DNA from: Brachionus manjavacas
Taxonomy: Eukaryota > Rotifera > Eurotatoria > Ploima > Brachionidae
NCBI GenBank assembly: GCA_019054805.1
Contig: JAHQIY010000009.1
Location: forward strand, 1,922,001-1,986,000
Direction of reading: 5' to 3'
DNA: 64,000 bases
Every line of letters begins with the position of its first letter. The stretch's first letter is position 1. Below are positions 3,771 through 64,000 of the stretch, piece by piece. The notes beneath the pieces are model-generated. The model was not told the DNA's origin. It worked only from the letters and a program-made list of their open reading frames with translations, and ran no database searches. Position numbers and translations under genes: made by a program.

Positions 3771-3975
3771 ATAAGTAATGAGAAGTAGAAAAATTAGGTT
3801 TTCATAAAATTTTGGTGGTAATTTAAATAATTAGAGAGATCGATTTAAAATATTTAAATTCATGTTCATGAAATTCATTTTTTAGAGTTAAAGAACTCTT
3901 GCATTTTAAGATTTTATCATATGATAATTAGCCAGCTTAAATATTCTAATCTTTTTTGTATGGAAGTTTAGAAAG

Positions 3976-4359
3976 GAACCAGAAATTGCTGAAACAACCC
4001 AAGATGTATTGACCACTAAAGAGTCTTTGATTCCTGATACAACTGAATCAACAAAAGGACCAGAAATTGATGAAACAACCCAAGATGTTTTGACCACTAA
4101 AGAGTCTTTGATTCTTGATACAACTGAATCAACAAAAGAACCAGAAATTGCTGAAACAACCCAAGATTTTTTGACCACTAAAGAGTCTTTGATTCTTGAT
4201 ACAACTGAATCAACAAAAGAAACAGAAATTGCTGAAACAACCCAAGATGTATTGACCACTAGAGAGTCTTTGATTCCTGATACAACTGAATCAACAAAAG
4301 AACCAGAAATTGCTGAAACAACCCAAGATGTATTGACAAATAAAGAGTCTTTGATTCTT
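3976..4359 (+). repeat. Orphan array of 81-bp coding minisatellite (4.7 copies)
   Basis: About 4.7 copies of an 81-bp unit encode a 27-residue repeat (EI[AD]ETTQDVLTTKESLI...TTESTK). The unit is the same as that inside the fibrinogen-domain gene at 4548-7121, but this array faces the other way. The frame is open across the array but has no ATG, and a TAA lies upstream at about 3927. After the last unit it runs only a few codons to a stop. No signal peptide or fibrinogen domain is attached. It begins at the same unit boundary (EPEIAETT) as the intact gene's array. It is probably a duplicated and inverted fragment rather than a gene. Confidence 0.85.
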
Positions 4360-4547
4360 CAATTCGTCAAATAAAAGATACAATAAATATAAGCCTTGTA
4401 CTTTAGGCTCAGAAAAAAACATATATCAAATTAAAATAAAAAGCTAATGACTAAGTGTAAATAAAAAAAATTTTTTTTTAAATTTATTTAAAATATTTCA
4501 TATTAACAAAACAATCTAAAGATTTAATTATTTTTTACCGATTTAAT

Positions 4548-7121
4548 CTATGGAATTAAATACATTTTAAATATTTTTGTATTTTGATATCCTGATGTTC
4601 CACCAAATTGATAGTTATTGAAATAAATTATATTATTTTGAATTCCTGTTTCACAGCTAAAGCAAAATCGGTTCGTATCTGGTCTGTGCCAAAATGCTCC
4701 ATTAAACGTAATTGCCATATTTGAATATTGACCAAAATTATAAGCCGAAAACTGATAACCATTATGATTTAAAAAGCCATTACAGTTAAAAATAATTGGT
4801 GAAGACACTTCTAATTTATAATTTGACGCCTTATTTCCTACTCTAAATGTTCTGTATTCTTCTACGAACATACCATTTTCAGTCTCAATTCTCAATTTGT
4901 AATTGTATTTGCTGGTCACTTTGTTAAGAATGTCCAAACCAATCCAAAAATTTGACTGTCCATCAGAAAAGCCTTCGATATAATCATTTATCGGTCTGTA
5001 GAAGAATCTTGGCTTTGCATTTATTCTTGAAGCGATCAGGATCTGATGAACCGGACTCATTAAATAGGCATAGTTAAATCTGTCCAAAGAATTGAGGTAT
5101 TCAATTTTTTCTGTTTCCACTTTATTTGGCAAAAATATGTTGGTGTACGAATTTCCTTTATCAATAATGGCAATGTTTGTTTGCAAGGCTTCGGTGCTAA
5201 AGCAAGTGGTACTATTAGATTCAAATATGTTGATAAGATTGTTAGTCGTACAAAACGAATGCATTATTATATTGGAACCGCCATTTCCAGCATGATGAAT
5301 TCTTGATGTTTCTAATTGAATCTTTGTATTGAATAGATTTGTTGTCCAAACACCAACATAAGTTTGTTGGTATGGACAATTTGTAAAAATCTGAACACTG
5401 GTAGTGGTAAAGTATATGTAAAACCCGTTTGTTATTGTTTGATTCAAATTTATGATAAAAATTTCACCAATATTAGAAATAACTTGGAAATGACCATTTA
5501 TAAAATTAAAAGAATAAATTATGTCCTGATTTGAATTGCTGATGGAAAAAGAGAAAATTAAAGAGCCAACAAGGTTAAGTTGACCAGTAAAGTGAATGAC
5601 TGTCCCGGGAATGACACTTATAACATCTCTACACTTAAATGTCGAGAGGGCAGCTTCCAGATTTAAAAAACCATGAGCATTTTTGTACAAATTTATTGTT
5701 GTCATTTGGGAAAGCAAATTTGATTGCCATGCTATTTTAAATTGGTTCGATTTAGGACAATCAACATATATATCAACTTGGCCTTCATCGTTAAATATAA
5801 AAAACAATGTATTTATCGTATTCATTTGAAGATTAAGGACCTGTTTAGCCGAATTGGATTCAAATATCAAACTATTTAAGGATGGACTATACCAAACAGA
5901 AAGCAAAAATCCATTTAGTAAATAACTTTGAAATATTATTGAAGTCTCAGTTTTAGCCTCAACACCACAAAGTTCCCATACAATAACAATGTCGCGGTTA
6001 AAATAGATACTTTGATAAACAGAGGCAGGAGTCGTGGTAAAGATGGTAGAAGTTGAAGGAAAAAATGAAGTTGATAATTTTGTAGTGCTTATTGATTCAA
6101 AACTTGTAGAAATCTCCTGTTCTTTAGTTGATTCAGTTGTATCAAGAATCAAAGACTCTTTAGTGGTCAATACATCTTGGGTTGTTTCATCAATTTCTGG
6201 TTCTTTTGTTGATTCAGTTGTATCAAGAATCAAAGACTCTTTAGTGGTCAAAACATCTTGGGTTGTTTCAGCAATTTCTGGTCCTTTTGTTGATTCAGTT
6301 GTATCAAGAATCAAAGACTCTTTAGTGGTCAATACATCTTGGGTTGTTTCATCAATTTCTGGTTCTTTTGTTGATTCAGTTGTATCAAGAATCAAAGACT
6401 CTTTAGTGGTCAAAACATCTTGGGTTGTTTCAGCAATTTCTGGTCCTTTTGTTGATTCAGTTGTATCAAGAATCAAAGACTCTTTAGTGGTCAATACATC
6501 TTGGGTTGTTTCATCAATTTCTGGTTCTTTTGTTGATTCAGTTGTATCAGGAATCAAAGACTCTCTAGTGGTCAATACATCTTGGGTTGTTTCATCAATT
6601 TCTGGTCCTTTTGTTGATTCAGTTGTATCAAGAATCAAAGACTCTCTAGTGGTCAATACATCTTGGGTTGTTTCATCAATTTCTGGTCCTTTTGTTGATT
6701 CAGTTGTATCAAGAATCAAAGACTCTTTAGTGGTCAATACATCTTGGGTTGTTTCATCAATTTCTGGTCCTTTTGTTGATTCAGTTGTATCAAGAATCAA
6801 AGACTCTTTAGTGGTCAATACATCTTGGGTTGTTTCAGCAATTTCTGGTTCAAAGCTGAAATTGTCCTGAAATATTTGATTGATTTTACTTTTTTCTTCG
6901 GAACTGATTTCTTCATTTTTCAAATCAAAGATTTCTTGAACCAGCCTTGATTCTTTATTGTCAAGAATGTTCAATTCATTTGGTAACCAATTTAAATCTT
7001 CTCCAAAAAAATCTTTTACCAAAGCTTCTCTTCGTTGTCTTTGAGCATTATTGGCATCAATTGATATTGCTAAATTCAGAATGGAGATAATTGAGAAGAA
7101 TATATTTTTTTTAGCATTCAT
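4548..7121 (-). CDS. Secreted fibrinogen-related protein with Thr-rich repeats (copy A)
   Basis: Single exon, 857 aa. The N-terminus is a hydrophobic signal-peptide-like segment (residues ~5-22). A short linker is followed by nine tandem 27-residue Thr/Glu-rich repeats (residues 93-335) and a Ser/Thr-rich stretch, probably a mucin-like stalk. A conserved region with paired cysteines shared with copy B follows (~365-640), and then a divergent fibrinogen C-terminal-like domain (~670-857) with FWIGLDILNKVTS, YKLRIETENG and a terminal FCFSC. FReD proteins are secreted lectin-like recognition molecules in invertebrates; that role here is inferred. A TATA box at 7170-7177 lies 49 bp upstream of the ATG. 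A possible poly(A) signal is at 4483-4488. Residues ~677-770 are identical at DNA level to copy B. Confidence 0.85.
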   Translation of the reverse strand: MNAKKNIFFSIISILNLAISIDANNAQRQRREALVKDFFGEDLNWLPNELNILDNKESRLVQEIFDLKNEEISSEEKSKINQIFQDNFSFEPEIAETTQDVLTTKESLILDTTESTKGPEIDETTQDVLTTKESLILDTTESTKGPEIDETTQDVLTTRESLILDTTESTKGPEIDETTQDVLTTRESLIPDTTESTKEPEIDETTQDVLTTKESLILDTTESTKGPEIAETTQDVLTTKESLILDTTESTKEPEIDETTQDVLTTKESLILDTTESTKGPEIAETTQDVLTTKESLILDTTESTKEPEIDETTQDVLTTKESLILDTTESTKEQEISTSFESISTTKLSTSFFPSTSTIFTTTPASVYQSIYFNRDIVIVWELCGVEAKTETSIIFQSYLLNGFLLSVWYSPSLNSLIFESNSAKQVLNLQMNTINTLFFIFNDEGQVDIYVDCPKSNQFKIAWQSNLLSQMTTINLYKNAHGFLNLEAALSTFKCRDVISVIPGTVIHFTGQLNLVGSLIFSFSISNSNQDIIYSFNFINGHFQVISNIGEIFIINLNQTITNGFYIYFTTTSVQIFTNCPYQQTYVGVWTTNLFNTKIQLETSRIHHAGNGGSNIIMHSFCTTNNLINIFESNSTTCFSTEALQTNIAIIDKGNSYTNIFLPNKVETEKIEYLNSLDRFNYAYLMSPVHQILIASRINAKPRFFYRPINDYIEGFSDGQSNFWIGLDILNKVTSKYNYKLRIETENGMFVEEYRTFRVGNKASNYKLEVSSPIIFNCNGFLNHNGYQFSAYNFGQYSNMAITFNGAFWHRPDTNRFCFSCETGIQNNIIYFNNYQFGGTSGYQNTKIFKMYLIP
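4812..5091 (-). repeat. 280-bp perfect inverted duplicate, arm 1 (copy A fibrinogen domain)
   Basis: The reverse complement of this stretch equals 8619-8898 base for base. Identity stops abruptly at both ends. It covers the core of the fibrinogen-like domain of copy A; protein outside the block is only roughly 60-65% identical to copy B by eye. Confidence 0.95.
6117..6845 (-). repeat. Coding minisatellite, nine 81-bp units
   Basis: Nine in-frame 27-codon units make up residues 93-335 of the copy A protein. Variation is concentrated at a few positions: Ala/Asp, Lys/Arg, Leu/Pro and Gly/Glu. Units with the same variant recur in alternation, as expected from unequal exchange or block duplication. 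Copy B lacks the array. The antisense strand is also open across it, but that is a shadow. Confidence 0.95.
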
Positions 7122-7169
7122 ATTTTTTAGATATTTTTTAAAATCATTAAATATTTTTTTTATTCTGAC

Positions 7170-7177
7170 TATTTATA
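7170..7177 (-). promoter_or_regulatory. TATA box of fibrinogen gene copy A
   Basis: TATAAATA on the minus strand, ending 49 bp before the copy A start codon. It lies in the 421-bp divergent intergenic region shared with copy B. Confidence 0.6.
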
Positions 7178-7480: not shown

Positions 7481-7542
7481 AGAAAAAAAAAATTCAATAA
7501 AATATTAAATTATTTAATAACAATTATTCAGGTATAGTGAAA

Positions 7543-9195
7543 ATGCAATTGAGTTTCAGTTTAGTCGGATTTTTGTTTTTGTTCGGCTTGGCATTTGCAG
7601 AAAGAAATACCACAAAAAATTTGTCTGAACACTTTTCGCCAATTCAGGGTCCATCAAAAACCGATCTTTCAGAATTCGACACAATTTACTACAACCAATC
7701 TGTTGTTCTTGTTTGGGAGCTTTGTGGTGTTGAGGCCCGGTCAGGAATTACCACCATATTTGAATCAGATATTGGCAATAGAGAAAAATTGATAGTTTTA
7801 TTTAACCCTTCTATTAACAGCTTAATAATTGAAACAGTTCTTAATAATGGTCAAATATTAAATAAGACAATTTTAGATCTAAAAGTAGATCAACTAAATA
7901 CATTGTTTTTCCTATTTTCAAATGAAGAAAAAATTCACATTTTTGTAGATTGTCCAAAATCAAATCGAGTAAAACTCGAATGGCAATCACCGTTTGTCTC
8001 TAAAATGAGTCTTATTCGTTTGTTCAAAAATGCTCATGGTTTTTTAAATTTAGAAACAGCTTTATCTACATTCAAATGCAGGGATTTGATCACTGTGTTG
8101 CCGGGCACAGTAATTCATTTTACTGGACAACTGAACAACGTTGGTACTTTGATATTTTCTTTTACTGTCACAAATGGAACCGTGGATATTATTTATTCAT
8201 TTAGTTTTATAAATGGAAACTTTCAGGTAATTAGTAACAATGGTCAAATTTTTAATATTCATGCGACCCAGCAAATAACAAATAGCTTTTATCTATTGTT
8301 TACAATAAATGGCATTGAAATTTACCTAAATTGTCCTTACAATCAGCAAAATGTTGGACTTTGGTCCGTTGATTTATTCAACCAAAGACTTCAAATAGAA
8401 ACTTCGCGGGTGCATCATGTGGGCAATGGGGGATCTGCACAATTAATGCTTTCTTTTTGTACAACTAATAATCTAATTAATATTATAAGTGGAAATAATA
8501 CTGAATGTATTCCTGTTCAGCATCTTCAATCAAGTGTCCAATATATTGATTCCGGAAACAGCTACACAAACATATTTTTGCCAAACCAAGTCCAAATTCA
8601 ATTAATTGAGCAATTTGGTTCTTTGGACAGATTTAACTATGCCTATTTAATGAGTCCGGTTCATCAGATCCTGATCGCTTCAAGAATAAATGCAAAGCCA
8701 AGATTCTTCTACAGACCGATAAATGATTATATCGAAGGCTTTTCTGATGGACAGTCAAATTTTTGGATTGGTTTGGACATTCTTAACAAAGTGACCAGCA
8801 AATACAATTACAAATTGAGAATTGAGACTGAAAATGGTATGTTCGTAGAAGAATACAGAACATTTAGAGTAGGAAATAAGGCGTCAAATTATAAATTAAC
8901 TGTTTCTGGTCCAGTTATTTACAATTGCAATGGATTTTCAAATCACAATAATCACGAATTTTCGGCTTATAATTTCGGAAGGTATTCAAATCAGGCTATT
9001 AGTTTAAATGGTGGATTTTGGCTTACTGGTAGTACCAATTATTTTTGTTTTAGTTGTGAAAATGTAATAAACACTTCTGGAACCGCGGCAACCACTTATA
9101 ATTTTGCAGGATACTTTTTAAAATATGGTTCAAATAACCAATATACTAGATATGATTTCAATACAAAATATTTAAAAATGTATCTAATTCCGTAG
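7543..9195 (+). CDS. Secreted fibrinogen-related protein (copy B)
   Basis: Single exon, 550 aa. I start at the ATG at 7543, because the in-frame codon two positions upstream is GTG. The protein opens with a clear signal peptide (MQLSFSLVGFLFLFGLAFA). A short linker replaces the repeat stalk of copy A. The Cys-paired region (VWELCGVEA, FVDCPKSN, FKCRD, LNCPY, LSFCTTNN) and a divergent fibrinogen C-terminal-like domain (~350-550) ending FCFSC follow. It lies head to head with copy A, so the pair probably arose by inverted duplication and may share control. AATAAA is at 9225-9230. Residues ~359-452 are DNA-identical to copy A. Ligand and role are unknown; recognition or adhesion is inferred from the family. 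Confidence 0.85.
   Translation: MQLSFSLVGFLFLFGLAFAERNTTKNLSEHFSPIQGPSKTDLSEFDTIYYNQSVVLVWELCGVEARSGITTIFESDIGNREKLIVLFNPSINSLIIETVLNNGQILNKTILDLKVDQLNTLFFLFSNEEKIHIFVDCPKSNRVKLEWQSPFVSKMSLIRLFKNAHGFLNLETALSTFKCRDLITVLPGTVIHFTGQLNNVGTLIFSFTVTNGTVDIIYSFSFINGNFQVISNNGQIFNIHATQQITNSFYLLFTINGIEIYLNCPYNQQNVGLWSVDLFNQRLQIETSRVHHVGNGGSAQLMLSFCTTNNLINIISGNNTECIPVQHLQSSVQYIDSGNSYTNIFLPNQVQIQLIEQFGSLDRFNYAYLMSPVHQILIASRINAKPRFFYRPINDYIEGFSDGQSNFWIGLDILNKVTSKYNYKLRIETENGMFVEEYRTFRVGNKASNYKLTVSGPVIYNCNGFSNHNNHEFSAYNFGRYSNQAISLNGGFWLTGSTNYFCFSCENVINTSGTAATTYNFAGYFLKYGSNNQYTRYDFNTKYLKMYLIP
8619..8898 (+). repeat. 280-bp perfect inverted duplicate, arm 2 (copy B fibrinogen domain)
   Basis: This is the partner of 4812-5091: a base-by-base comparison shows no difference over 280 positions. 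The bases on either side differ at once. The centres of the arms are about 3.8 kb apart. Confidence 0.95.
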
Positions 9196-51276: not shown

Positions 51277-52612
51277 TTAAAATTCAGCGAACTCTTTCTC
51301 GAATTTGCATGTAGGCGATGTCCTCAGAGGTTCTTCATCATACTCGTCAAAGTTGCTGGCATCGCCGTCCTTGCATCTGGGTATGAACGGTGCCTCTACT
51401 TTTTTCTCGTAGATGGCTATCCAGTCCGTGGGCGAAAACCACTTGTGACCTTTGATGTCATCGACTCCGTTTTTCAGATTGCCGAATCTTTTGGTCAAGT
51501 CGACCTGGAGCAGGTTGCGCAGCAGGTCTTTTAGATCCGAGCTGAAGTGAGAAGGAAATCGCACTTTTCCGCTCACTATTTTTTCGTATATTTGAATTGG
51601 CTGGTCGGCAAAAAAAGGTGGATAGCCGGCTGCCATTTCGTATATGAGAACTCCTAGGGCCCACCAGTCCACGGCCTTGTTGTAGCCTTTGGACAAAATA
51701 ATCTCCGGAGCGAGGTACTCTGGCGTGCCGCACAGAGTCCAAGTGCGACCCTTGACTCTTTTGGCAAAGCCGAAATCGGTCACTTTAATGTAGCCGTCCG
51801 AGTCGATTAGCAAATTTTCGGGCTTCAAGTCCCGGTACAAAATTTCCAAGTAGTGCAAGTACTCGAATGTGAGCACGATTTGTGAAGCATAGAAGCGGGC
51901 ATGGGTCTCCGAGAAGCGGCCCATTCGCCTCAAATGGGAGAACATCTCGCCGCCTGGCACAAACTCTAGTACCATGAACAAGTACAGGTTGTCTTTGAAC
52001 GAATAGGCTAGATTGACTAAAAACGGAAAGCTGATTGCTTGGAGAATTTTTTTCTCATTCAAAGTATGCTCGACTTGTTTTAGTTTAATAACCTTGATTA
52101 AGAAAAAAAAATAAAAAAAATTTTTTTTTTAATTTTTATTTTTAATAAAAAAAATTGAAAAATTTAAAATTACTTTTTGTTTGTCCAAAATTTTCATGGC
52201 ATAGTGCTTGTTTGATTTTAGGTTTCGGACAAGCATGACCCGGCCGAACGAGCCGGTTCCCAGAGTTCGCTTGCGTTCAAAGTCTTCCAGAGACGAATTG
52301 TCCTTGGAGGAGAAAAATATTGGTTTTAATATTTTCCAAATTTGGATCACTTGAAAATTAATTTTTTCTCAAGTGTTTTTTTAAGGTTTTTTTTTTTATT
52401 TTTTAAAGTTAAATCAACTTCTAGGTAAAAAATGACTCACTGTAATCGGTGATTCCCATCTTTGGATAAATTCTTCTTTTGCCTTCAGCAAAAATTGTTT
52501 GACTTTGGAGAGAAAAATTTTTTTTTAAAAACCAAAAAAAAAGCTAAATTAATTTCTGCCTACCATGTTCGGATTGATCGCCTTTTTTGGAACTTTGCGG
52601 GTTATTTCCCAT
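51277..52612 (-). CDS. PKA-C: cAMP-dependent protein kinase catalytic subunit (4 exons, 351 aa)
   Basis: Exons are 52612-52564, 52502-52441, 52302-52174 and 52092-51277, exactly 351 aa as in human PKA-Calpha. The N-terminus [13 protein letters not shown] has the myristoylation glycine and A-helix, followed by [17 protein letters not shown]. The Gly-loop is GTGSFGRV and the ATP lysine AMKILDK. The catalytic loop is YRDLKPEN. The DFG segment and activation-loop Thr are in [19 protein letters not shown]. The AGC tail ends in the FxxF-type EFAEF. This Ser/Thr kinase is held inactive by regulatory subunits and released by cAMP. Codon use is GC-rich relative to the region. The block 51536-52111 is identical to a second PKA gene at the window's right end. 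Confidence 0.96.
51536..52111 (-). repeat. 576-bp perfect direct repeat, copy 1
   Basis: Every base equals 63413-63988 (offset 11877). It covers 557 bp of the last PKA exon plus 19 bp of intron. Outside it the kinase coding sequence diverges at once. Confidence 0.95.
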
Positions 52613-53199
52613 TTTGTTTCTTTTGCTTGGCAGCTATTTCCTCGCTTTGGACACAGACTCAAAAATAGAAAAAACAAACAAAATAAATTTTTCTTTTTCT
52701 AAAAATCTATTTCTATATGAATTTTAATTAGTGTCTAAATGAGAGAAACATTTAAAATTTTTTTTGCTCAAAATTTGAAATAGAAACTTTCTAAATTTGG
52801 TTGCAATTTTTCAATACAGTTTCAAATTCGCTCTTCTATCCGTGTGCATTCGTTGCCTTTTCCTCACTCACGATTTTCAAGACAACACAAAACCATAAAT
52901 TTTTTAAGTAATAATAAAAATTTATGTTTCTAGTTTTATTTTTATATTCTTCTCTCATTCGAAACATAAATAAATCCAGAAAAGAAAAAAAATTCAATAT
53001 GAAAAAAATTCAAATTATGCCAGGCGCAGAGAGAGAACTAGCAAAGAGGGGCAACGCACAAAGCAAGCTCGGTGAAGAGAGAGGAAAAATGAGAATAGAA
53101 CAAATTTTATTTTGCCGTAAAGCAGCCACCAAGTCGACAAAAACAAAAATAATTTATTTCAATTTGGTGGCGTTCAGTGTATTCCTTGGGAACCATGAT
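52613..53199. other. 5' flank of the PKA gene
   Basis: Presumed promoter region of the minus-strand PKA gene. A 93-codon plus-strand ORF (52924-53205) has no recognisable content and is not called. Confidence 0.4.
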
Positions 53200-54110
53200 C
53201 GATAATAGGCCCTAGCATCATTTGGCGCTTTTAAATAAAGCAAAATATTGGCGGCACATGTGACGCGGCCTTATCGCCAGCCACATGACTCCTATCTAGC
53301 GCAATGTGTCCCTGCAAACTGATCCCGCTTGCGCAAACTAAAATTCATAATTCTTTGACAATTTTTAAATTATCATTTTAAATTAAAAAAAATATTTGAT
53401 ATTCTCTTTCTTTCTTTGATTATCTTGCCTAAAACTGATCTAATCAATCAGACTCGGTCTGACATATCACAAATGAGTCGGATCGTATAAAAATAATTTA
53501 TATCCAAATTTTAAATGGCACTTAATGGTGCATAAAATCTGCTGAAAAGCAAATATTTCTAAATATTAATTTATTAATTAAGTCGGCACTCAGCTTTCAG
53601 CGCCGATTAATTTATTTGGCATGAAACTAAACAATGACATTATTAACAAACAAAATGAGAAAAAGAAAAAAAAGAAAAAAAAAGCTTGTTACACAACTTT
53701 TGTGACTAGCTCGGGGTGAAGTTGAGAAATTTTAAAATTTTTCAGCAAAAAAAAATTATTCAAATTGCTAAATTTTGAATTTGAGCTCGCTCAAAGACAC
53801 GTCGATTTGATCATGTGTCCCCAAATATGAGTATTTGTTGTTGCTGCTTGATCAGGTGCTGGAATGTTTTGCAGCAACTAATCCGGCAAAGTTAACCGGC
53901 AAACTTAAAAAATTAATAAATTTAATTTTCTCAAAATAAGCCCTGTAAAGTCTCTTGATCCACGTAGGGCTTTATTTCGAGTGTTGTTAGCTGAAAATAA
54001 TTAAATTTGGCTAGAATTGTCGCTCTTAGTCGGAAATTGGATTAGCTTTGCTTGTGTTGGCTGCACCTGTCGCCTAATTTGGCAACAATGATCAAAATTT
54101 TGCTAAAATT
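53200..54110. promoter_or_regulatory. GC-richer non-coding block with E-box cluster
   Basis: About 0.9 kb that is clearly less AT-rich than its surroundings but has no convincing ORF. It contains several CANNTG E-boxes: CACATGTG near 53255, CACATG near 53282, CATGTG near 53813, CAGGTG near 53853 and CACCTG near 54065, plus homeodomain-type TTAAT cores. It lies 0.6-1.5 kb upstream of the PKA start. A cis-regulatory module is the simplest reading. It is inference from composition and motif density only. Confidence 0.35.
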
Positions 54111-56206
54111 TACAAGAGCATAAAATTAGGATCATAAAATCGTCATAAAACATTATCAAGAAAAAATATTATATTTGAAAAAAAAATCAATAAAATAATG
54201 ATAATTAAATAAAAACTGAGGCAATAAAGAAATTCAGAAAAAAGAGAGAGAGGGGCTCAGATAGAATTTTTTATAATTCGTTTTATACTAAAAGCTTTCC
54301 AAAATGTAATCAAAAGTTAAAACCATATTTTAGCGCAAACGCTTCAACCAAACCTGGAAATAAAATAAATTATTTTTTTCCTAAGATATATTTAAGATAA
54401 ATTGGTTGGGATCGAATTTCAATTCTTTTTCAAAAATAATCTCTTTTCTTTTTCTTTTTTTTTGTTGGAAAACTAAACGAAAAATTGTTTGCTAAATCGT
54501 CAAATTTTGGAAATTATGCATGCATAAAACATCTTCCTACGTAATCTTGGTGTTTACGCTAGCAGGCACATCTAAACAATTCCCATCACGTACCGACAAC
54601 TTAGCAGCCATCAAAAACCATTATCTGCAAAAAATTTGTTTTATTTTTACTTAAATAATTACTTTTTTTTTGATTGATTTAGTACAATTGTTTAGATTGT
54701 GGGCCCAATTTGAGCTTTCAATCAGGCCCTTGATGCCAGTTCAGCCCGGTCTTTATTTCAACACAATTTAAATTTAGAAAATTCAAGGAGTTTATTTAGT
54801 TGTTAAGTAGAATTTATTTAATTAAAATAATTCAGCTTCAAATATATAAGAGTATTTAACATCCTGAAGTAATGCTGTTTTAAATTATAGAAACATAAAT
54901 TTAAATAATCCAGGTCTAATACCCTCTTCCTTTTTTTGTTCAGAAATTAATTTCACTCCGATTTCTCTCAGACTATTTTACCCGTAAATATTTGCTAAAT
55001 TGTCAAAAAAGATTCAAAGAAACTAAACAAAAAACTTGTGTAAATTCGGCACAAGTTTTTTTATAAAATATTTTTTTTTTCTACAAAATAAATTCTGACA
55101 TTTGATACCAAGTTAAATATTGGAACAAAAAAATTTGATTAATTTAACTTTCAAATTATTAATCACTGAGAAGCATTTTTTTATTTAAATTATTTAATTA
55201 TTTAGTCTAAATTAATAAACTTGATTAATAATTAAATAGATAAAAAATTCATAATTAATTATTTAATTATTAAAATAAAGCGTCATTTTAAATTGCATTA
55301 ATTTTTAATAGAATGATTTGACATCAAAAGAAAACAAACATGAAAACTCTCCAAGTTAAATATGACATTTTTTTTAATTTCTTTTTTGAAAAAAAATAAA
55401 TAAATAAAAATTTTGTTTTAAAATTTCTTTGATTTTTTACAAAATTTTTCGTCGTCAAAAATAAAAACATAGAAAATTTCAGACTAAATATTGCTCTAAT
55501 ACTTTTATTGAAAAACTTAACAATGATCTTGTTTAATAATTCAAAAAGCTTAATTAAAAATTAGTTTAAACGTTTTTTTTATGGATCGTATAAGGACATG
55601 TACAAAATTGCTAAATGTTTGCCAATGTGATCTTTGGCTATATCTTAATTACTTTAAAATAATTAAATCAATATTTTCTTAAGAGAATTCTTAGTAAATT
55701 ATACTTTAAACATGACTGGAAAATTTTGTTGTAAATATTTTCAAGTATTTTTTTAAAGTTTATAAACAAGCGAGCAATTTTTGGAAAATCAAAGAAAAAT
55801 ATTTGCTCTTACTAAATTCTGTCATGTATTGAGCTTTACCGGAACATGGCACGCTGAAAAAAAATGATAGAAATATAAGCACAAGCACTTGACTCTGAAT
55901 ATTTATCAAGTAAAACAACAAGCTCTAGCTAAAAACAAAATATTTATTAATTAATAATTATTATCCTTGTTTGAATAAAACTTTGCTCTGAAGTAAGTAT
56001 CCATGGCAACCAAGAATATTTAGATACTCAATTTAAAAAAAAATTAAATTTTGAATCGTTTTTTTAATTTTTTTTCATATCCTATCGTTCTACTCATCTA
56101 AAAATAATTAACAACAATGAAATATTTGAGAACGAAGGCTATAAAAGCGGCTCGTTCCAATCTTATCTAAAGCAAGATAATTTTTTACGATTTACATTCT
56201 AGATAA
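54111..56206. other. AT-rich intergenic region
   Basis: No gene or recognisable mobile element. The final part is the 5' flank of SPATA1. Confidence 0.45.
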
Positions 56207-59200
56207 ATGTATACCAATAGACCTCAATACAACCAGAGCTTTGAGCCTTACAATAAACAAGAAACGAGTCGACCCGATTCCTCAAAGGTAAATTCCGCAC
56301 ACCGGACCACACTGGACATGCTTGGACCTCTTATCACGTTTTTTTTAAATATCATGTCAACATAAGATAAAAATTCAATTATTTTTTTTCATTCATGCCT
56401 TTATTGTGATAGATTTAATTAATTTCTTATTTGCCTAGATCCAATTTTGTTCTAATTAAAAATTATAATTAAAAATTAAAATTTAATAAAGCTAGTTGAT
56501 TTACATGTGTACATTTTACCGAGGGATTTTTGGAGAACAAAACAAAACTTGGCCTACAATGAAACAATCATTGAATCCATTTCTGCTGGATTTATCAGGT
56601 GAATAGAAAAAAAGACACCTTAAAAGCCTGCTAATTTTTCCCTAAGAGTAACGCCGCATATTTTGCTCCGGGATCTTCGTAGAGAAATACGGCAACAATG
56701 CACAGATGAGGAAGTGCCGAAAGATTATGTGTTTCTTAGAAGTGTAGGCCGAGCACTGACTCGTGTTAAGCCCTACCAGGAACAAGAGCTTAAAGTAAAA
56801 TACTTTCTACCACCTCAAGTAAATTTAAAAATTTTGTTTTTTATTTTTTATTTAATATTATTTAATTAACAAGGCTGTGGGGCCAGAAATTTTTTTATTA
56901 GAAATTGATGAAGAAATATCAGGAAGTTTATTGCAAAAATTTGACCGTCCCGGTGTCGATTTTTTTACTCCTGCCGAGTCGAACAATTTGCCAACATTGA
57001 AGACTCGCAGAGACAATGAATTGAGTCGCAATTCTCAGTTTTATCCGGACACAAGTGCTGCCAAAGAATCCACCAGTAGCATATCAAACTATGACCGACT
57101 AAAGGACTTGGACAAAATGAAAGAAGAACAGGAACGATTGCGGAATAGACAAATCTATTTGGAACAATTGCGCAAGAGACAAATGGAAAAAATGAGCGAC
57201 CAAAATGGTCAAGTCCCTGTTGAGGATAATTTCCCCACCGGTGACGACTATTTGGCATCGCGGGAGAAGTACAATAGTGATGATGACGATGAGGAAAGAG
57301 ATAAATCTGCTTTGGTAATTCAAAATGCCTATCGCGGATACAAAGACAGGCAAAAGATAAAAAGACTGCGGCGAGAAAAGGCCTTGCCAATTATTGAGTA
57401 AACTTCTTAGGTTTTGAATGATTTGATTTGATTTTTTTTTTCAAGAGATAATTCTGAGGAAATACTGGAAACCGGTGATGTGGATATTCTGGAAGTTGAA
57501 AATTCGGGTATTGTTTTGGAGCAAAATTGTTTACTTTTTAATTTTGCTTAATAAAGAGGAAAGCTTACGCGAAAGGATTAAAAAAACTAGACAGAGAAGA
57601 ATAGAGGTCGAGAATTTAAGAAACGATCTGTTAAAACATATCAAAAATGTTCATAATAGAATATCAATACGTCGAAAAGAAGGTTTTTTTTTTGATTTTT
57701 TTTTGTTGGGCCCAAAGGTGGTTAAATTTTTGACGCCATTTAATTAAAAGAGAAATGCCATTAGGATGATATTTAGACTTTAAGGTTAGAATTAAAGGAC
57801 AAGTTATTTTTAAATTTTTCGTTTATGTCATTAATCTTGTATTATTTTAAATTATTTCCTAAAAGTGCAAATAAAGTATTTCATTCTAATATCCGATTTA
57901 GCAGTATAAAATCTTTTTAGCTTCTTTTCCTACACTTTTTTTATTACATTTTAATTTAATTGCTTTTTAAAGGTGTTTGGTTTCTTTGCGTCATTAATCT
58001 TTTTGACTGAAAAAAAAATATGATTCTTTATTATTTAAATTTAAATTAATTAATTTAAAAAATTTTTTCTCCTTTTTTTTCTGCATTGAAATCCATTAAC
58101 TTGAATTCTGGAATAAGATTATTAACAAAATTAGTGATGAAATTCAGTGCAAACTGAGCAGTCAATGAAAAAGAAATTTTTTTTTTTTAAAAAATTAAAA
58201 TTTAAGAAAAAAATTGCAAATTTCACCTCATTTATTTAAAAAAAAAAGAGGAAATTTTTTTTTATAATTATCTAAGGAATTTGGTTAAATAAAAATATTT
58301 TTAGAGCTTTTTTACATTAACTCAACAAAAACTGATATTGGTAAGACATTTGCTAGCTGATGTTAATATTTTGTTTAAAATACCTTATGTTTTAATGCTT
58401 TGTTAAATTTATTAAGTATTTTATTCTTCAAATTTTGATGAATTTCAAGCAAATTCTTATTGAAATTGATTCACATTGACTGTCTAATTACTTTACCAGA
58501 TTTTAGCTTCTTTCTTAACCTCACATTTAAACCTTAGTTTTTAAATTTAGTAAAATAAGAGCTGCTATAAAATTTAACTCTTAATAATCAAAAAGGTTTT
58601 AATGAATTTAAGATAATCGGGTTTAAGTGCAACGATCTCTATGTGGGAAAAAAGTTTAAAATGTTTCTTTTGATAAAAATTGAGATTAGGGTATTTTGAT
58701 TTCTTGAAATATAGTGTAATTTTTACTGTTTATGTCTAGGTATGTTAAATTTTAAAAATTAGAAATAGAAAAAAAAATTTTGTTTAAGGTTTAATGAAGT
58801 AAATTTAAATCTTTTAAAAAATGAAATAATTTTTTATTTAAACTTTTATTGAAGCTTATCTTTCATTGTATTTCTTTAAATTTTTTTGACTAAATCTTAA
58901 TAATTAAATTAGCTTCCAAAAAAATTTAAAAATTAATTATTAATATTTTTTATTATTTGTTCATTTCATTTAAAAAAAAGGCAAATCGAATTTGAATTTT
59001 AGAACAAAAAAAAGGGAATTAAAATACTCAAAATTTTTTAATAATAGCTCAAAATTGGTTCTGCAAATTTTTTATAATAATTCATTTAGTGTATTAAAAA
59101 AATAAGGCTGCTGCACATAGTTGTTAAATTATAAACAAAAATAAATACCAAAAAATTTAAATTCAACATTTGTTCTAAAAATTCAGATAACTTTATCAAA

Positions 59201-62200
59201 TGACACATTATTTGTTTCATCTAATTCGCGATTTTTATTTTTTTGAAAAAAATTTTGTAAAATTGAAAACAAGCTATAAATGACAATTTTGAAAGCATAA
59301 AAATAATGATGATTGAAAGTAAATTAAAACAAATTCAAAAAGATTCAATTTTACAAAGATTTGAAAAATATCTAAAAGTTTGTCGAGCTTCATTAATAAG
59401 AAATAAGTAAATTAAAATGAACTTTACAGAGTCTCTGTTTCAAATTCATGATGAAACCTTGTACTATAAATTAAATTTTTAAAATTTAAATTAACTTAGC
59501 AGACCAGCAAAAAAATACTCGGAATTTGGCCAAAATTAAAAACACAATGTTAATTTTTATCAAAAGTAAAAATCTTCTTCTAAATTTTCTATTTTAAAAA
59601 TATTATTTTAGAAAATTAAAAATTTAAATGAGACCTTTGAAATAGGAAATATTTACCGGTTCTATTCATGGGCCTTCTGGAAGTTAACATAAATTTATAG
59701 AGAAGGTGACATTCTTTATCTTTGAAATAAACTAAAATCTAAAAACCACAAAAAATTCATTTAAAAAAAAATAACATTCAAACTTTAATTTACCACCATT
59801 ATTTACTTGAGCAGTTGGTTCTAAAAACTAATTAGCTAAAATTGCGTATTTTCTAGCAATTTTTAGTCTAATTGATCGTAAAAATAAAAGGAAATTATAT
59901 TTTCGAAATAAAAAATTTTAACATACAATTCACATTTAAAAAGCGTAAATTTAAGAATTGTTCTTAAATAAGCCTTTTTGTTGTAAATAATTGAGTTAAA
60001 AATAGAGACTCGATTTCATCTTATTTGAATTTGAATTTAAATTCGGCTTCATTAAAGATTTTTTTATAAATCAGCTTAGGCTCAGACAAAAAATTCTTTT
60101 ATTCAATTATATAAGAAATAATTAATTCAAATAAACAATAGTCGAAGAAAAAATAACACGAAATTTAATGAATACTTATAAAAAGTTTACCAAATAAATA
60201 AAATTTTTATTAAAAAAAATTACGGCTTGGAGCTATTTTAATTAATTCCAAGCTGAAAATTCTAATTTTTCAGAGATAAAATAAAATGGGCGTCAAAAAG
60301 TCAACAAACCAACCTGATTAAAAAATGTGTTTTTAGCGCGAGATCTTTGGAAAAAAAAATACTTTTCGGAAAAAAAGAAAACACCGGCGATCGAGGATAG
60401 AGTAAACTCTTTGCTTGCTGAAATCGAGACTATAAACAGTAAATTTTTTGCATCCTACGAGTCAGATAATTATGTAAATAGCTTCAGAAATTCGACTGTT
60501 AATTTGAAAAATTCAGAAATAAAGGTAATATTTAGCTAAATTTAATTACCATATCTAAATAGCGTATCTTACCCTATTCAATCTTTTTAACAAGTTAAAA
60601 TTTTAATTTAATATATTTCAATTTAATGTATAAAAAATTTTAATAATACTTTGTGTTTTATTAATGCTTTTGATGTGGTTATCTTTGACTAATATTAGTT
60701 AGCTATGGATAAGACACACTGATCGTAACTTTTGGAGCACTATTAATTTGCCTGTCTTTTTGAAGGTTTTGTCATTGAAAATTTATTTCTGCTCTATTCA
60801 CCATTTTTAATGGCATTAGAACGTTTCAAAGCACAATTCATTGCAAGAAAAATCATAGCAAGGTAAAGTGAATAAAAAAACAATTTAATTAAGTCTATTT
60901 GAAATCAATGTTTATGTTATTTAAAAAAGCTAGTTATTTTTAATGTCTAATCTTCAAAATTCAAAATTAAATTCTCCATATATTGACACAATTCATCTTT
61001 ATTGTACAACTTACATAAACCAAATATGCGTAAATCTTTTTCCTCTGGTTCAGTTGGTCTACTAAATAGTTCTCCAGCCCTTACTTTGACTAAATTACCC
61101 TCCATGTTTGCTTGTTCAACTCGTAACTTCTCTACCAACTCATTTAGTTTAAAAAAATTTTCTCATCACTTGTTAAAGCATTGTGCCAGACTTCAACAGC
61201 ATTCGTTGTTCTAGGTTGACCATTGATAGTTAATTTCCAAATCGAAATCACTATTTATTAAATTATCTTTTAGACTAGCTTGGACATTGGACTTGACAGG
61301 AGCAGATGATTTAAAATTCTTCTATTTCGAATATTTTTTAAAGAAGGCGACTCATTCCGGTTCTCTCTCAAAAAATTAAGATTCTTACTTTAAAGATGCA
61401 TTAGAAAAAACTATAACTTGCTATGAAAATTATGAAAATTTTGACTTTACTTCTTGGTACAGTTTCCATACATTGAAAATTTTGTCTATAACTCATTGAA
61501 CAATTACTGATTGAAAATGCTTTTACAGTTTACATATTACAATAAATTTAGGGTTTTCAAAAAAAAATTGAAAAAAAAACTCGCAATTCTGGGCATTGAT
61601 CATTGTCAAGAATGAACTTAACAATATTTTATATAATAGTGGTACAACGGTTTAATCATTAAAATAAAATCAACAAAAAAATAAGCTGAAATAAAAATAA
61701 ATTTAAAATCACTTTTTCAGCTGGTTTCAAAATTAAGACAGTTACCACCTTTGTATTTTTCAAGTTCTATTTTCGTAAAACTTGATTACTTAAATTTTTT
61801 TGAAACCATTGCACCTTTTTAATAAATATAGTATGCTTATTGTAGCTTAGACTTTTAGGCTTTGAATGATATACTTTTTTTTAGGCTTTATTTAATAATT
61901 AACACTTAAAAACAAAATCAATCAACTCAATTGAAGTCTTTGCACCATAATCAATTATTTTAAAATTAAGATATTTTTTCTATATTTAACAATTTATTTA
62001 AAAAATTGTCAAATATTAATCTAAAACTCTATGTAAAGAAAAATTAAAATGAAATCTGATTTGATTTTTTAATTTTAAAAATTCTTCATTTAAAAGTCCA
62101 CATTCTTTTTAATTTAAGTGCAAAATTTCAGGTCATTTAATTTTATTTATAAATAGAAATAAATAAAAAATAATGTTTCGTCTTTCTTATTTTCACCTTT

Positions 62201-63020
62201 TTTAAAAAATCATTAAATTTTTTCGTCTATTGTCAATGAAGCCACAAAAAATAAGCATGAATCTTTGTCACATTTTATTTAATAAAAAGGTTATTTAATG
62301 TATACTTTTTAGAATTTTATGGGGTATAAAAAAATCCGATGGCCAAACATTACTTTAATGTGCTTAAAGCAGTTTTCTAGATTAAAAAATTAAATATTTT
62401 GATGCTTTTTTACTAATTTTTGCCTTTTTTTATTAAAAATTACTTATCGAAGTTGGCGTAAATTTTTGAAACTAATGAAAAATGCAATGAATTTACTAAT
62501 TTTACTTATAAAGCATTTTTTACTATTTTATTTTGCGTGAAATATGGTAAATTTACCATATTAAACATAAAGAAAGTTAATTTCATAGAATGAAGCCAGC
62601 AAAGTAAAAAAAAATAAAAAGTTTCAAAAAATACGAGCAACTTATTGGCATGCACTTTGTTGTTTTTGTCTGAATTTATCTTTTACCTTTAGTATTGATA
62701 CACAATTTTTAGAGCAATTGGTCTTCTGTGTTTTCTAGATTTGAGAGATTAACAGTTAATCATTTTTGTTAAGGCTGGACGGTTAGAATTACTCAAGTTG
62801 GAGGAAGAAATTTTCAACTTAAGAAGACAAATTAATCATGCAAAACTAAAATTAGCTACTGATATAAAAGTAATTTTGTTTTTTGCGCTACACAATTTGT
62901 AGACTAGAGCCAAATTTTTAATTTAAGCTTCGCATTCAAGCCGAAAGCGAAACTAAGGCCTTAAAGTCGGAGCTTCTTCAAGCTAAAATGAATTTATTAC
63001 AGATGAAAAATAGCGATTAA
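56207..63020 (+). CDS. SPATA1: SPATA1-family protein (9 exons, 482 aa)
   Basis: Exons: 56207-56287, 56492-56598, 56647-56818, 56874-57397, 57446-57507, 57557-57682, 60337-60524, 62774-62869, 62928-63020. The total is 1449 nt with consistent phases. The N-terminal domain starts LVDLHVYILPRDFWRTK and continues with ISAGFIRVTPHILLRDLRRE, as in vertebrate SPATA1. The acidic, charged middle carries an IQ-type calmodulin-binding motif (ALVIQNAYRGYKDRQKIKR). The C-terminus is the family's coiled coil: ARDLWKKKYFSEKKKTP, then NHAKLKLATDIKLRIQAE, then ALKSELLQAKMN. SPATA1 is testis-enriched in mammals, suggesting a sperm or flagellar role; that is known of the family, not shown here. Two introns exceed 2 kb. 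AATAAA is at 63099-63104, close to the convergent PKA gene. Confidence 0.88.
57683..60336 (+). other. SPATA1 intron 6 (2.65 kb)
   Basis: Donor GAAG|GTTTTT and acceptor TTTTTAG|CGCGAG. AT-rich; no nested gene or transposon recognised. Confidence 0.6.
60945..61235 (-). mobile_element. MULE transposase C-terminal relic in SPATA1 intron
   Basis: On the minus strand one frame reads GQPRTTNAVEVWHNALTSDE. After a +/-1 shift the next reads KLNELVEKLRVEQANMEGNL and then runs to a stop (60947-61138 is the longest piece). R-T-x-N-x-V-E-x-W-H followed by a helix with ...LR.EQ... is the hallmark C-terminus of Mutator-like (MULE) transposases found in many animals. The frameshift and missing catalytic domain show it is dead. 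Confidence 0.6.
61236..62773. other. Remainder of SPATA1 intron 7
   Basis: AT-rich; nothing recognised. No terminal inverted repeats were found around the MULE piece. Confidence 0.5.
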
Positions 63021-63153
63021 TTTTGCTTTTATTTTTGCTTTATTTGCCTCAATTTTTAAAAAGCTTTTTTTCACTCATGTTGCTATATTTTGTATTAAAA
63101 TAAAAAATTTTAATTAACTTTTTTTTTTTAATTTTTATTCAAAAAAATTTAAA

Positions 63154-63969
63154 TTAAAAATCAGCAAACTCGTTTTGGAAAATACAATGAGAGGATTTTT
63201 TTAACATTTCCTCGTCATATTCCTCAAAATTAGATGCATCACCTGCTTTACACAATGGAATCAAAGGCGCAGTTACTCTTTTATCAAATATGTCTTTCCA
63301 TTTTATTTCCTGGAACCACGGATGGTCTTTTACATCATGAACACCATTTTTTAAATTTCCAAACCTTCTAGTCAAGTCTAGTTGTAGCAGGTTTGAAATC
63401 AAATCCACTAGTTCCGAGCTGAAGTGAGAAGGAAATCGCACTTTTCCGCTCACTATTTTTTCGTATATTTGAATTGGCTGGTCGGCAAAAAAAGGTGGAT
63501 AGCCGGCTGCCATTTCGTATATGAGAACTCCTAGGGCCCACCAGTCCACGGCCTTGTTGTAGCCTTTGGACAAAATAATCTCCGGAGCGAGGTACTCTGG
63601 CGTGCCGCACAGAGTCCAAGTGCGACCCTTGACTCTTTTGGCAAAGCCGAAATCGGTCACTTTAATGTAGCCGTCCGAGTCGATTAGCAAATTTTCGGGC
63701 TTCAAGTCCCGGTACAAAATTTCCAAGTAGTGCAAGTACTCGAATGTGAGCACGATTTGTGAAGCATAGAAGCGGGCATGGGTCTCCGAGAAGCGGCCCA
63801 TTCGCCTCAAATGGGAGAACATCTCGCCGCCTGGCACAAACTCTAGTACCATGAACAAGTACAGGTTGTCTTTGAACGAATAGGCTAGATTGACTAAAAA
63901 CGGAAAGCTGATTGCTTGGAGAATTTTTTTCTCATTCAAAGTATGCTCGACTTGTTTTAGTTTAATAAC
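63154..63969 (-). CDS. PKA-C: Second PKA catalytic subunit, last exon (gene runs off the window)
   Basis: This 816-bp exon is the exact length equivalent of the last exon of the gene at 51277-52612. It begins after the acceptor CTTAATCAAG with [15 protein letters not shown]. It encodes the catalytic loop [11 protein letters not shown], activation segment and AGC tail ending EFADF. Upstream exons lie beyond base 64000. The first ~186 codons are DNA-identical to the other gene. The last ~85 codons differ strongly ([36 protein letters not shown]) and use AT-rich codons. The gene is convergent with SPATA1; the stop codons are 133 bp apart. A minus-strand AATAAA lies at 63134-63139. I read it as a functional paralog. 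Confidence 0.93.
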
Positions 63970-63988
63970 CTTGATTAAGAAAAAAAAA
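63413..63988 (-). repeat. 576-bp perfect direct repeat, copy 2
   Basis: Partner of 51536-52111. The left edge falls inside the kinase C-lobe. The right edge falls about 19 bp into the intron, where the poly-A tracts start to differ (9 A then T, against 10 A then G). Confidence 0.95.
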
Positions 63989-64000
63989 AGAAAAAAAAAA

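Follow-up and report, generated by a model that had tools for sequence, protein, structure and literature searches.

The window, that is, the whole 64,000-nucleotide stretch of Brachionus manjavacas DNA that was analysed (C9:1922001-1986000), carries two genes encoding catalytic subunits of protein kinase A (PKA), here called C1 and C2, which lie in the same orientation and 11.9 kb apart. As the second copy of the sequence described below is cut off by the window end, adjoining DNA was added, and its overlap with the window was exact. The assembly searched comprised 114.17 Mb in 61 contigs. Its source is most likely B. manjavacas, a very close relative being less likely: two Cas9 guide targets published for this species, in vasa and mlh3 (PMC10395877, in part), each matched the assembly once and perfectly in a search that allowed three mismatches, reversed-pattern controls gave 1 and 2 matches at that tolerance, and all four genotyping primers matched exactly next to the targets. 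The features at the locus are as follows:

51277..52612, minus strand: gene C1, a canonical PKA catalytic subunit of 351 aa and the likely donor; open spliced frame with GT-AG introns
52564-52612, 52441-52502, 52174-52302 and 51277-52092, minus strand: the four predicted exons of C1
63154..64000 in the window, with 339 bp more beyond it, minus strand: gene C2, a PKA catalytic paralogue of 351 aa and the likely recipient
64229-64339, 64054-64182 and 63154-63969, minus strand: the three predicted exons of C2
51536..52244, minus strand: putative donor copy of the tract, 709 bp (alignment, shuffle comparison)
63413..64000, minus strand: in-window part of the putative recipient copy (full tract 63413-64124, 712 bp)
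52093..52173, minus strand: phase-0 intron within the tract, 81 bp in C1 (C2 counterpart 63970-64053, 84 bp)
51280..51537, minus strand: diverged C-terminal coding flank of C1 (C2 counterpart 63157-63414; 86 whole codons, two tract-edge bases included)

Both genes had been predicted to encode PKA catalytic subunits. In agreement with this, phmmer analysis of C1 returned PKA C-alpha as the top match among solved structures (E 2.5e-191), and the Pfam Pkinase domain was found in both proteins. C2 had been regarded as incomplete; it too is a complete gene. Inspection by eye showed the catalytic and C-tail motifs to be retained in C1 and C2. C1 has an AGC kinase core, the activation-loop Thr context, FDDY and a C-terminal FxxF, and C2 has the same core, with FEEY and FADF at the C-tail, the names being those of what we take to be the PKA motifs. 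The N-terminus of C1 (MGNN and an A-helix) matches the PKA MG- acylation site. The N-terminus of the C2 model, in which the first exon is predicted only, is dissimilar and contains neither the MG- site nor the A-helix. C1 and C2 are old duplicates. A common intron position and shared C-tail character, few characters in all, weakly suggest that they are sisters; a one-residue C-tail deletion, with GDAS, is shared by C1 and C2 and is absent from human PKA-Calpha and from C4, a paralogue in the same genome. A protein search of the assembly, considering the best candidates only, identified no kinase matches between C1 and C2, where frames of at least 70 aa were also inspected by eye. Scanning the window for tRNAs and for Rfam families at the gathering threshold gave no hits.

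The original prediction described a perfect 576-bp block shared by the two genes. Base-for-base comparison showed that 51536-52111 and 63413-63988 are indeed identical at 576/576 positions, and any extension produces a mismatch. The identity is thus real; the length was an underestimate, as the window end falls inside the block, and with the adjoining DNA the tract measures ~710 bp. The alignment contains 708 identical bases and a single interruption, a poly-A/T spot in the intron with one base in C1 (52112) and four in C2 (63989-63992), beyond which a further 132 bp are identical, up to 52244 and 64124. Both ends of the tract lie in coding sequence and the tract covers the entire intron. The involvement of the intron had been correctly anticipated, although it was put at 19 bp; the non-coding sequence is homogenised over its whole length, with one short difference. 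The tract starts in the Gly-rich loop, at its third glycine, and reaches FPSHFSS. The loop reads GTGSFG in C1 and GTGSFS in C2, the differing base being the first one outside the block. A DNA search of the assembly returned two copies at 100% identity, with the next best of its six matches at 71%.

Outside the tract, the flanking codons of C1 and C2 match at 197/318 bases. The remaining ~260 bp of the large exon, already noted as diverged, are identical at 161/258 nt and 53/86 aa (whole codons). The spliced coding alignment comprised 942 sites with 121 differences, and the longest identical run was 628 nt, compared with 97 for the longest run among 10,000 shuffles; the tract of excess identity therefore sits within longer copies that are homologous and diverged. 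At the tract edges, the identity falls to about 60% at once, without an intermediate shoulder. The tract had 0 synonymous differences over about 135 sites, whereas the C-terminal flank had 47.8 over 51.2. The two flanks had pS values of 0.97 and 0.93 and pN values of 0.22 and 0.24, whereas both were 0 in the tract. Synonymous change has reached saturation in the coding flanks. Where C1 and C2 encode the same residue by a degenerate codon, the codons were identical in 199/199 cases in the tract and in 22/65 in the flanks, and at the flank rate the former has a probability of 10^-93.

A second gene pair in the window, X and Y, are inverted neighbours with a fibrinogen C-terminal domain, and share a block within coding sequence that is otherwise ~62% identical:

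4812..5091, minus strand: fibrinogen block in gene X, 280 bp perfect (gene X open frame 4548-7172)
8619..8898, plus strand: partner block in the inverted gene Y (gene Y open frame 7501-9195)

The X/Y alignment differs at 514/1635 coding bases, and a 280-bp run was reached in 0/10,000 shuffles. The block is likely to represent a second conversion tract. Across 78 kb of window and flank, searched for paralogue pairs with frames of at least 50 aa and an E value of 1e-6, there were two coding paralogue pairs, repeat arrays aside, and both carry such a block. Tandem repeats of 81 nt (27 aa) were also present, in one array inside gene X (5949-6977) and in an inverted array beside it (3891-4376), with inner copies mostly 88-98% alike and lower values at the edges. 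In the sequence L009, a perfect 94-bp direct repeat was identified at positions 983-1076 and 3814-3907 of that sequence, 2.8 kb apart; it is apparently non-coding, and its flanks are unlike by eye.

The analysis was extended to 15 neighbouring paralogue pairs in the assembly, comprising 10 kinase, two fibrinogen and three DEG/ENaC pairs. Kinase places were picked by position only, 118 search rows resolving into 104 places, among which 22 pairs shared a contig and lay within 60 kb of each other; the 22-pair tally was made afterwards, and 10/22 were counted. The comparison also covered four cross-pairs from the C7 cluster, whose runs were at most 12, and the pairs on contigs C4 and C6 (outside the 15 longest same-contig runs), all of which were left uncounted. 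Six lay outside the block-by-block comparison, namely two further pairs on contig C17 and those on C20, at C5:2.47 Mb, at C7:1.10 Mb and on C19, the last three of which probably each represent exons of a single gene. The DEG/ENaC pairs were drawn, not exhaustively, from 101 matches on the grounds that they were adjacent and about equally identical to the query.

An identical run of at least 100 bp was present in 9/15 pairs. In 6/15, at least one exon held a perfect block of at least 100 bp that no shuffle reached, these pairs being PKA, fibrinogen X/Y, L037/L038 (=L056/L057), L044/L045, L050/L051 (=L062/L063) and L054/L055 (=L061/L060). These six showed 0.33-0.89 synonymous differences per site outside the blocks and 0-0.05 in the near-identical parts, a contrast exaggerated by construction, as the windows were sorted by identity. 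The L060/L061 block borders on 83-93% identical sequence and is a milder case. In the neighbouring kinase genes L056/L057 (contig C3, 17 kb apart), coding sequence was identical over runs of 428 and 521 nt, with an identity of about 50-78% where the coding sequence continues. No block was identified in four of the 15 pairs, which share only 28-35% of residues over the main match and include the other fibrinogen pair, L066/L067 (179/516 aa), nor in the kinase pair L042/L043 (119/177 aa). The three DEG/ENaC neighbour pairs provided no strong case: in two that were near-identical the run was reached in 8/500 and 6/500 shuffles, and a 240/458-aa pair had a 38-nt run reached in 0/500. L040/L041 was near-identical throughout (run reached in 8/2000 shuffles). 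Near-identity in 3/15 pairs leaves no basis for judging a block. Among 37 kinase loci, runs of at least 100 bp were found in 0/623 different-contig pairs and 6/42 same-contig pairs, a comparison confounded by the mostly greater divergence of the different-contig pairs. Runs under 20% GC were dropped from the 623-pair control, and the 42 same-contig pairs exclude one locus fetched twice. A 40-bp identical stretch in L017/L025 was the only one of at least 40 bp among the 623 pairs. In this small sample from one assembly, the results are suggestive of recurrent conversion. A broader claim would be that conversion between neighbouring paralogues is frequent in this genome and proceeds at unusually low DNA identity (about 60%), resetting the functional cores of local gene pairs again and again as their ends drift apart, and so yielding chimeric kinases and other proteins genome-wide; we consider this doubtful and offer it as speculation.

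The direction of transfer at the PKA locus was addressed through codon use and amino-acid conservation, which support C1 as the donor and C2 as the recipient (51.3-52.6 kb into 63.2-64.3 kb). GC3 was 112/199 in the tract, 62/104 in the homologous flanks of C1 (p=0.63) and 29/103 in those of C2 (p=3e-6), bearing out the original prediction that the block shares the GC-rich codon use of C1 and that the rest of the second gene's exon is AT-rich. Comparing dS and GC3 along both genes, which had been proposed as a check, revealed the tract/flank contrast and a C1-like GC3. The non-homologous first exons, AT-rich in both genes (C1 11/35, C2 10/35), were left out of the main test; with them included, the tract compared with C1 gave p=0.51 and with C2 p=4e-7. 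The ratio of tract to C-flank distance from human PKA was 0.54 for C1, just below the 0.58-0.73 of four comparisons involving neither gene, and 0.21 for C2, far below it. Relative to the paralogue C3, the ratios were 0.72 for C1 and 0.44 for C2; relative to C4, they were 0.88 and 0.62 and did not separate the genes. On balance, the C2 core appears foreign to the C2 tails and native to C1. GC3 and the distance ratios indicate, indirectly and by comparison within the same genome and with human PKA, a non-reciprocal transfer with a recognisable donor, and both agree with the direction first proposed. Transfer from C2 into C1 could draw on the AT-rich exons 1-2 of C1, which taken alone (11/35) differ from the tract (p=0.01), and on the short N-flank of C2, which taken alone (7/20) is indistinguishable from it (p=0.10). 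However, both the GC3 of the homologous flanks and the protein distance ratios calculated against human PKA and C3 favour C1 as the source, and the opposite direction is highly improbable.

No part of PKA is more conserved than the kinase core, whose identity might be attributed to extreme purifying selection with no recombination. The degenerate codons contradict this, as do the inclusion of the intron in the tract and the paralogue C3 of the same genome, which is identical at only 155/207 aa over the same stretch; selection alone is ruled out by the synonymous sites, and its probability is negligible. Retrocopying is also ruled out, since the presence of an intron inside the tract requires copying at the DNA level rather than via mRNA. 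Partial or chimeric duplication produces identity blocks with sharp ends. In contrast to such cases, diverged homologous coding sequence continues in register on both sides of the C1/C2 tract, which indicates that the patch was replaced and not added. The original prediction had raised the possibility of a mis-join, whereby the C1 core was placed between C2 flanks by mis-joining or gap filling. The window edge does fall inside the block, and the assembly was taken on trust. However, a 3.94-Mb contig encloses the locus, and sequence specific to C2 borders the block on either side. Two direct copies with unique flanks permit one linear order only, and reads crossing the C2 junctions should exist if these copies were assembled. 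One difference between the introns shows that the block was not pasted as an exact copy; both C2 flanks are diverged with a lower GC3 than those of C1, and the C2 frame and predicted splice sites are preserved. These observations weaken the mis-join concern, and we regard an artefact as very unlikely. Concerted evolution, in which many conversions since the duplication, possibly varying in direction, kept the core alike, is a variant of interlocus conversion and compatible with it. It would remove the difficulty of low identity, as the last event would have acted on similar sequences, and L044/L045 and L060/L061 show patchwork or intermediate shoulders. The PKA edges, however, have no such shoulder and the tract looks wholly C1-like, making a long series of events possible but less probable. 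From the abrupt tract edges, we favour one last event.

Interlocus gene conversion from C1 to C2, whether by single or repeated events, is thus very probably the explanation. A break in C2 would have been repaired by copying C1 non-reciprocally, in the manner of synthesis-dependent strand annealing. The C2 kinase core, between the glycine-rich loop and the alpha-G/alpha-H region, would thereby have been replaced, and C2 would have kept its own N-terminus and C-tail. The event is recent on the synonymous-divergence scale, because the tract carries no synonymous changes and only one short poly-A/T intron difference. C2 is still an open kinase gene, apparently functional, and would now be a chimera of the C1 core and the C2 tails. 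According to a published review (PMC3924818, in part), conversion occurs mainly above 80% identity and less often below, and tracts average 50 to several hundred bp; against these means, the C1/C2 tract is at or above the upper end. The coding DNA at the tract edges is now ~60% identical between C1 and C2, implying either that the former C2 core resembled C1 more closely than the flanks do or that recombination was mismatch-tolerant. Proximity may offset divergence, and in C. elegans conversion is described as falling with distance, with same orientation suggested as favoured (PMC3966223, in part). The same source cites 526 events across 7829 pairs for that species. Gross loss of mismatch repair has no support, as the assembly contains six MutS_V matches at five places, all above cut-off, which do not in themselves imply MSH identity or function.

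The PKA case represents a clean natural example of recent copying delimited to the base, with the direction obtained from two independent tests and a chimeric kinase created. If the small sample of pairs is representative, gene-family trees and dates for this rotifer would be wrong unless conversion is masked. On the same proviso, this animal, for which Cas9 editing has been published (PMC10395877, in part), could serve to determine the degree of similarity that recombination requires.

This kind of conversion event is already known. A literature search of open papers returned no title on PKA gene conversion in rotifers among the matches listed. In the same genus, concerted evolution is described for the mate-recognition gene mmr-b of the Brachionus plicatilis complex (PMC3495898, in part); mmr-b consists of near-identical tandem repeats, whereas the C1/C2 tract is a patch between strongly diverged genes. 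Sections of a review (PMC3966223) provide two further parallels, from C. elegans. In col-12/col-13, as in C1/C2, the near-identical stretch contains an intron and is bordered by very dissimilar flanks. The tandem genes fog-2/ftr-1 similarly represent conversion within one genome between linked duplicates, although their overall KS is 28%, in contrast to the synonymously saturated coding flanks of C1/C2. Unlike the C. elegans cases, the C1/C2 tract of ~710 bp lies inside a deeply conserved kinase.
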